Below, piece by piece: positions 16,901 to 19,900 of a DNA stretch of 64,000 nt (position 1 is its first letter; the number at the start of each line of letters is the position of its first letter). Below the pieces are notes generated by a model. It saw only the letters and a program-made list of their open reading frames with translations. It was not told the DNA's origin and searched no databases. Made by a program: the position numbers and the translations under genes. The DNA comes from Rhynochetos jubatus (lineage: Eukaryota; Chordata; Aves; Eurypygiformes; Rhynochetidae), in NCBI GenBank assembly GCA_027574665.1, contig CM050656.1:1487001-1551000 (forward strand), written 5' to 3'.

Positions 16901-19900
16901 ATGAGAGTTAATTAACGTATAGAACACCGTGATGGCTTCAACTGTCGTAAAACTGATGACATCAGTATAGCATGTATTAAAGGCTTTTCAGTTAAAAAGA
17001 TATTAAAAGCCATTAACTTACAGCAATTACGTAAAGATTTCAGTAACAAGATGCTCTGAAGTGCAGTCACCACAAACTCCTGAATTTTGTTTCTTTCTGG
17101 ATTTACTACTGGAGTAGTGAACCCAAGATTCGTGCCATGCCGTGGGGGAATCCAGGAACTGCTGTGTCTTGCACACTCCTTATGGTAGAACCAAGGCATT
17201 TTTGGAACACAGAAATGTGGGTTTTGGAGTGGTTCTGAGGTTTAGGATGGGTGGGGTGATCTTTGAGCTGGTTGGCAAAGGGCAGGCTGGTCTCCATTCA
17301 GTATTTTCTTATTTATGGCAAATCTTTATCCTTTTTTATTCCTCAAGCTATTACTGGCAGAAGATTGCTCACAGAGAATAAGATTACTCCCTGTAGGAGG
17401 CATGCTGGAGGGGCAGGTCTGCGTACTGAAGAAGCAGTACGAGTTCTGTCTAGTATCTAACTTAGAAATAATTATTTTCCTCTCTTTCTTTTGATCCTTC
17501 TTTCCAGGTTTCCAGTGCTCTCTGCATACTGCTTTATCCAGGCCTCATTCTTATTGACCACGGACACTTCCAGTATCCTTGCTCTGCAGTGACGTGAGTT
17601 CCCGGTCCTGAAGTAGCACTCTTCTTTGGTACTTGTCTTCAGCTGGGCCGAAGGTTCTTGTGTATTCGTCTGGGGGGCTTCTGCCTGCCCCACAGCAGAG
17701 ACGCTGGAGAGAGCTGTACGTCTGAAACCTACTGGAGATAAACCATTGGTATTGGGATAAATCAATCCCGACGTGAATGGCTCTTTCCGTGCCTCAGGCT
17801 CGTCTCTGTCGGTCGCTTCATTGTGGAACGCGTTAGTGGTGCTGTGACAGTGGAAGGGACGATGGCTTGTGCTCCTGTGGCTTGTGTCTGGAGAGGGAAT
17901 CAACTTAGATCTTGAGGTGGCAGAGGAGTGTCAGATGTGGTGCTGTAAAATGTGGGAGTGTGTGAAGTGTGCCGTCTCCCCTGCCTCCACAGCTACTTGT
18001 GAGTGGATTCAGTGGGTGCCGAACCGTTCCAGAGCTAGCACCGGGCTAACTGGTCAGTACTGGTGGCAGAGACCTTCACGGGTGGGGCGTTTTTAATAAG
18101 ATGGGGGGTTTTATACGTGTTTTGCACGCCAACAAGCAATGCTGCTAGTTCACTGCTCCGGGCTGTGCTGGTCAGTGCCATCGAGCCAGAGGGACACAAT
18201 CCTGGAGTTGGGATAAAGGCAGATGTTTAAATATTCCGAGGAGCTACTGAAGCTCAGCATCTGCTACTAAATCCTGTTCTGACACGTAGTTTGCTAATTT
18301 GTGGTTTTCTTCCGAGCAAATGCATGGTGAGCTTGGAGGGTATTATAGCTTAGAACGGAAATCTTACCGTATTTGAAGGAAAAAGAATCACAGTGCTCTT
18401 GAACATGAGTTACAGGTCAGGAATTGTGAAATTCTGGTCTTGGCCTGGCACTTTAAAGGTGTAGATCACCTGGAGATGTCACAAGGAGGGGGATGGGAAA
18501 GAATGCAGCTCATCCCAGGTGGGAGAAGCTGGGGGTCAGGGGAAGGCAGAGGGTTACAGTTTCCCGGTACGTGAAAGAGAGGAAGGCGGTGACGTGTTCC
18601 GAGTGCCCTGTGTTGGTCAGGGCAAGGAGTAACGGCCCTGAGTTACCACTGGGGATAGCTGTTTCTTAAATACATGGGAAAAAGTCTTTTGAACCATAAT
18701 TACAGTGGTTCATAATTACAAGCTGGGATCGCTTTCTGTGGATGTTGTGGAATCTGCAGCATCAAGATCTTTCAGAAAAGGTTCAGCAAATCCTGTGTCG
18801 GGGTGACGCAGACAGATGCGCTGCCTGGTCTCCTGGGGCCTCTTCACCCCTGTGCCTCCTGCGTGAGTCACTTCGCTCTCTGTGCCCAGCTCCACGGCGT
18901 CAGCAGGTTCACGTAACCTCGCCTGCTGCTGCCCCCCTCTGCACATCACCGCCTTCTGGCGTGGCAGGGAGCTGATGTGAGCTGGTCTCAAATGTACGTG
19001 GTGAGTTTGGGTGGGAAATCTGCGTGGGCTGAAAACAGTCCGGATGTGGCCTCACAGCTACTTCCACTGACAGAGAGACCAACATACTGTGACATTTGTG
19101 ACAGTACACGTTGTCTTAGTGGTTTCTCTCATTGTGTAACAGTAAAAGACAAAGCTAATATTTTGTTGCAATGCAACAGCCAGTGTAGCTTGGTCTCTTC
19201 AAACTACTGAGCTTGGACACCTCTTCTCAAAGTCCTTAGGAAGTACCGTTGCTGTTGGTAACTATTACTCAGTGTTAGTGCAGTATTAGCTATGGGAAAG
19301 AGGATGAGGGTGCGCTGTGAGTATAATGCAATCACAGAAACCTCAGGAGTCCTTCACCTAAATAATACACAATTTAAATAGTGATGAATTGGAATATTCT
19401 GCATCAGTCTCTTGGGAGCCGGGAGGAAAGACTCGAAAGCTTGATCTTCGGTCATGTAAATACCAAGAAAAACACGCTCGCCCTGATGCATCGTATGGAG
19501 CGCTGTCACCAAACGCTTGGTTGACTGAAGGGCGTGTGCCTGGGAATTATACGTGTAATGTATATTTATCCTCACTTTTGCTCCTGCAGGCCTTGGAAGT
19601 ACAAAAACTACGCTTCAAACAGAAGTAACATCAGGTCTGTCTGTGAACACCGTGGTCACACGTGGCAATGTGTTGTTGAAACCTATTTTGCATGCTGCTT
19701 TATGCTTGTCCCTCGGGGCGTTCCTTGCTGACTTCCAGTACTGAGATGTGTGTCTTGTCCTTGACAGAAAAAACCATATACAACTCGGTGAGCCTTGGCT
19801 TTGCCTTGTGGGCTGTACTTTATTTGTCTTATGACTGGCACCTCCTGGGGTCAGCGGCATTTTGCTTGGCCTTAAATTACAAGCAAATGGAACTCTACCA

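Follow-up and report, generated by a model that had tools for sequence, protein, structure and literature searches.

Where does intron 6 of ALG6 end in Rhynochetos jubatus, and by which spliceosome would it be removed? We addressed this in the window, that is, the whole stretch of 64,000 nucleotides analysed here (contig CM050656.1, positions 1,487,001 to 1,551,000), in which the intron starts with GT and offers no AG at the right distance from its predicted branch point. The answer that we consider very probable from its sequence marks is that intron 6 is a predicted minor-spliceosome intron of the U12 type, with GT and AT at its ends, and likely the orthologue of the GT-AT intron of human ALG6.

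Gene model and position of intron 6

The coding region of ALG6 is complete on the forward strand (7824–25734) and consists of 14 coding exons with 1524 nt, encoding 507 residues followed by one terminal stop. The 3′ end of exon 6 is CACTTCCA; the features around it are listed in Table 1. Recomputation bore out what a sequence-only reading of this DNA had given for the end of exon 6, the donor, the branch motif with its 8 of 9 matches, the resumption of coding at 19778, the 13-nt spacing and the total of 507 residues. The same reading had called the intron number 7, which would require a non-coding first exon; a count of the coding exons gives intron 6. It had also matched the coding count here to that of the human variant c.680+2T>G. 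This does not agree with the gene model, in which the exon 6 end is coding base 494 and coding base 680 is the end of exon 7, at 19963. Therefore, the human variant would concern the next intron and gives no support for intron 6.

Ten of the 13 ALG6 introns have GT-AG ends, introns 5 and 8 are GC-AG, and intron 6 is predicted to be GT-AT. The donor of intron 5 (16847–17507) is AAG/GCAAGT, and that of intron 8 (20583–22581) is the odd GAG/GCATGC; two bird-like fragments (P0006 and P0032) read GLFEACMF at intron 8, which fits the same GC donor.

Table 1. Features at the joint of ALG6 exons 6 and 7 (window positions; distances are counted from the predicted branch A)
Feature	Position	Strand	Remarks
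ALG6 coding exon 6	17508..17572	+	ends GGA CAC TTC CA; phase 2; coding base 494
ALG6 intron 6 (by coding exons)	17573..19777	+	2205 nt; predicted U12-type GT-AT; splicing inferred
U12-type donor GTATCCTTG	17573..17581	+	7/8 against consensus TATCCTTT at +2 to +9
GC, false-model donor	17581..17582	+	intron bases 9–10; join to TGAGCC (19789 on)
U12-type branch motif GTCCTTGAC	19757..19765	+	8/9 against TTCCTTRAC; predicted branch A = 19764
AG 3 bases past branch A	19766..19767	+	out of frame
In-frame AC, rival GT-AC end	19773..19774	+	+10; gives HFH-I-YNS
Predicted AT acceptor	19776..19777	+	+13; CCAT/ATAC
ALG6 coding exon 7	19778..19963	+	starts ATACAACTCG (YNSVSLGF...)
In-frame AG within exon 7, rival	19791..19792	+	+28; HFH-LGFALW, drops YNSVS

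Donor and branch marks of intron 6

The donor of intron 6, with the core GTATCCTT, conforms to the form (A/G)TATCCTTT of U12-type introns, and its first two bases are GT, as in the GT-AT subtype. On the scale on which it scores 7 of 8, the donors of the remaining 12 ALG6 introns reach only 2 to 4. The U12-type branch motif is located near the 3′ end of the intron; among the other 12 introns only intron 13 also contains a match of 8/9 (TTCCTTATC), and its donor is of the U2 type. From the predicted branch A to the AT end there are 13 nt, a short distance as expected for a U12-type intron. For such introns, the consulted portion of a review gives an optimal branch-to-end distance of 11–13 nt and describes a weak pyrimidine tract (PMC3584512). 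Pyrimidines make up 45% of the last 20 bases of intron 6, versus 65–90% in 11 of the 12 other ALG6 introns. A distinct pyrimidine tract is absent, yet this is weak evidence alone, as intron 12 also has 45%.

Taken singly, both motifs are at chance level in the window, with two copies of GTATCCTT (1.80 expected) and five of TCCTTRAC (5.08 expected). Under a first-order Markov model, the probability of finding donor and branch motifs both correctly placed in one intron is about 1.1e-7 per intron, or 1.4e-6 over the 13 introns. A scan of the window against Rfam at gathering thresholds gave no match.

Choice of the 3′ end

Every AG, AC and AT end in 19740–19829 was translated, and its frame and product were compared. 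After the branch A, the in-frame ends are AC at +1, AC at +10, AT at +13 and AG at +28. The AT at +13 is the only end that encodes the conserved 11-residue stretch at the joint (HFQYN...), and it is also the sole end of the form AN at +11 to +13. This sole end that yields the stretch, together with the donor core and the branch motif, is the ground of the U12-type GT-AT reading, which draws further support from the branch distance, from the published human ALG6 GT-AT U12 intron and from the AT readable in other amniotes.

Set against the turkey protein P0125, the enzyme of yeast (6snh) reads HFQYNSVMLG at the joint, so that YNSVS is conserved to yeast at four of five positions (YNSVM in yeast). 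Within the best 120 of 4798 full-length relatives, HFQYN in its expected context is present in 40 and absent in 80. The 40 include five intronless reading frames on short contigs that run across the joint (P0127, P0209, P0237, P0240 and P0241), all with HFQYN.

Two of the other in-frame ends are rivals. The first is the AC at +10, overlooked by the sequence-only reading, with which the intron would be GT-AC and the protein would gain one extra codon. The bird-like fragment P0001 described below likewise carries a codon for T (ACN) here, but the snake-like P0002 has N (AAY) there, and the in-frame AC is therefore not common to both. Moreover, HFHIYN is found in none of the best 120 of 4798 full-length relatives, and GT-AC, like AT-AG, is a disfavoured combination in U12 introns according to the consulted portion of the review (PMC3584512). 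We regard this end as improbable. The second is the AG within exon 7, used either as a usual GT-AG end or in a minor isoform. Its existence contradicts the earlier statement that no AG lies in frame, and HFHLGF, its product, does occur in three of the best 120 of 4798 records (P0214, P0219 and P0221). It sits 28 nt from the branch A, well outside the optimum given in that portion of the review (PMC3584512), and its use would remove residues that bird and mammal, and for the most part yeast, have in common. The statement that there is no usable AG consequently holds in the sense that this AG would cost the protein YNSVS, and fails as a literal absence. Use of the exonic AG appears even less probable than that of the AC.

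The joint in read-through fragments of relatives

A protein called from an unspliced contig may extend across the intron end into exon 7, in which case the last two bases of the intron can be read from the codon that precedes YN. Such an inference assumes that the intron is at the same place, and the ends in other species are read from codons, with only proteins being compared. We considered 123 fragments, including the best 120 of 300 in one listing: 62 show HFQ, 43 show R before Y, which fits AG/R, 7 show M or I, and 11 are outside these patterns, although P0056 and P0120 among the last do show HFQYN.

An ATG or ATA codon precedes YNS in P0001 (bird-like; exon 100% like several birds), P0002 (snake-like; exon 100% like the snake Pituophis) and P0026 (lizard-like; exon 93% like lizards and geckos). 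Upstream of the joint, SLT in P0001 and VLN in P0002 are consistent with TCCTTRAC and GTCCTTAAC. P0029 and P0030 match mammals at 96% and 98%, but their M opens the called protein, and its codon could be ATG, GTG or TTG. AT is also readable before YNS in the gene models P0228, P0236 and P0239, which are mammal and snake records. Two taxonomically unplaced fragments among the seven with M or I, P0063 and P0098, read SLT followed by M in front of YN, as would be seen if more distant relatives also had a U12 branch together with an AT end.

A comparison of the homologous intron in other species had been proposed as a check on the AT end; made here through proteins, it speaks for AT in that AT is readable in other amniotes, and against it in that 43 of the 50 read-through fragments have R before Y, as fits an AG end. 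By our own pattern, 16 of these 43 have a branch-like reading and 27 are without it. Ten of the 43 were compared with named amniotes, with best matches of 80–84%, and these ten are taken as lying outside the amniotes. We presume them to be fish. This distribution suggests that the U12 intron may end in AG in many non-amniote relatives and in AT within amniotes. Scans for DNA of the ALG6 locus returned 83 pattern stretches in viral contigs and 112 in genome contigs, with no relatives in either.

Bird ALG6 records at the joint

The best 120 of 4798 full-length relatives contain 83 birds, 82 by listed name and P0127 by the tree. At the joint, 65 of these bird records read HFQYPLSLG, 9 read HFQYN and 9 have other readings, so that 74 of 83 are without HFQYN; of the 37 non-bird rows, 31 have HFQYN and 6 do not. 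A 50-protein tree, with a bootstrap that was still unsettled, places the window among 40 birds in one fork (93/83); three galliform-like rows and the palaeognaths fall outside that fork, and the tree gives no order for the window. In this tree, P0127 lies within the fork of birds without palaeognaths (100/96).

What is the origin of HFQYPLSLG? In the window, ...CAGTATCCTT (CAC TTC CAG TAT CCT T) joined to TG AGC CTT GGC gives HFQYPLSLGFA exactly, the reading of the 65. Such a join carries 8 intron bases and loses the first 11 of exon 7. Could it be a real splice, from a GC donor eight bases into intron 6 to TGAGCC in exon 7? Its frequency among the bird records and the exact match in the window are in its favour. 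Against it, the acceptor that it needs in the window is CGG, not AG, and the U12-type donor and branch would both become accidents. Acanthisitta is present in two records, both on contigs of 28558 bases, and shows both readings (P0188 HFQYNSV, P0199 HFQYPLSLG). Furthermore, P0127, a bird-like transcript contig of 2185 bases with a frame of 526 residues, carries the conserved 11-residue stretch including HFQYNSV. A real splice of this kind is thus exceedingly improbable. Of the 83 bird records of ALG6 within the best 120 of 4798, 74 likely carry a wrong joint. Annotation methods that seek a usual end near the joint would shift it, and this may have affected most bird models in the set. An AG masked immediately before 19778 by faulty sequencing or assembly is an equally slight prospect, given the AT at the same joint in P0001, in the snake-like and lizard-like fragments and in the mammal and snake records, and the publication of the human ALG6 intron as GT-AT in the consulted portions of PMC10402094 and PMC11543605.

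Other records deviate at the same joint. P0228, P0236 and P0239 carry the inserts TNI, HI or NI, as if an upstream AG had been forced; all three retain the I that precedes Y, consistent with an AT end at the joint, and the two-residue inserts (HI, NI) correspond to the six-base deletion in the human ALG6 case described below. P0214, P0219 and P0221, lizard or gecko records from Tiliqua, Euleptes and Phrynocephalus, are without YNSVS, as if the exonic AG had been used, which may be an annotation error or a real isoform. Four bird records, P0178, P0216, P0218 and P0223 (Amazona, Columba guinea, Anas and Melospiza), lose GHF altogether; here exon 6 is disturbed more extensively at the joint.

Proposed mechanism and implications

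We propose that the predicted GT-AT intron would be recognized by U11 and U12 binding donor and branch together, and that the spacing from the branch would then select its 3′ end. Of the AGs, the one at +3 would be too near and the one at +28 too remote, and the AT at +13 could be accepted if the 5′ G tolerates T as a weaker partner than G. According to the consulted portion of a survey, the 5′ G of U12 introns splices to a 3′ G or T (PMC4176328), and the consulted portion of another paper counts GT-AT among the G-type minor introns (PMC8280824). Removal of intron 6 would be predicted to depend on U11, U12, U4atac and U6atac.

A wider account may be tentatively drawn, which we offer with considerable doubt. 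ALG6 may have kept a 3′ splice site without AG across the amniotes (birds, squamates and mammals), with AG in more distant relatives; the end would be picked by branch distance, the AG at +3 being passed over; and most bird models in the set would be corrupted. If this is true, ALG6, and N-glycosylation with it, would respond to an unusual degree to minor-spliceosome activity, owing to a lasting weak 3′ end.

Intron 6 provides a natural test of 3′-end choice by the minor spliceosome where no AG lies at the right distance. The probable wrong joints in 74 of 83 bird records would also mislead studies of selection or of protein structure, as the stretch concerned is conserved to yeast.

The kind of intron, GT-AT U12, is already known, and likely so is the human orthologue. 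The bird orthologue, the protein-level sign of an AT end common to amniotes and the probable misjoining of exons in 74 of 83 bird records are apparently new. Our literature search found no paper on this ALG6 joint in birds and nothing that pairs ALG6 with 'minor spliceosome' or with 680+2T. Among the matches listed, only the LRGASP paper has ALG6 and GT-AT together; PMC10951009 mentions ALG6 and U12, but not GT-AT.

Comparison with known introns

The closest known system is human ALG6 itself, for which the consulted portions of the LRGASP paper report a 'rare but annotated GT-AT U12 intron', part of the GENCODE annotation, that minimap2 forced into GT-AG with a six-base deletion, the length being that of the preprint figure legend (PMC10402094, PMC11543605). 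It is like intron 6 in gene, ends and type, and from these, rather than from human coordinates or bases, intron 6 is likely its bird orthologue. A deletion of that length implies that in human an AG stands six bases away from the true end, whereas in the window the AG precedes the end by 10 bases and does not keep the frame.

GT-AG introns of the U12 type have in common with intron 6 the donor GTATCCTT, the branch TCCTTRAC, the short branch distance and the weak pyrimidine tract, and differ in their last base, which is G instead of the predicted T. AT-AC introns of the U12 type have the same branch motif and the same donor past the first base; in contrast, intron 6 starts with G and is predicted to end with AT. 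With the U2-type GT-AG introns, which make up 10 of the 13 introns of ALG6 here, intron 6 shares the GT start. Different from them, it has CC at donor positions +5/+6 and a U12-type branch motif, and is predicted to end without AG.
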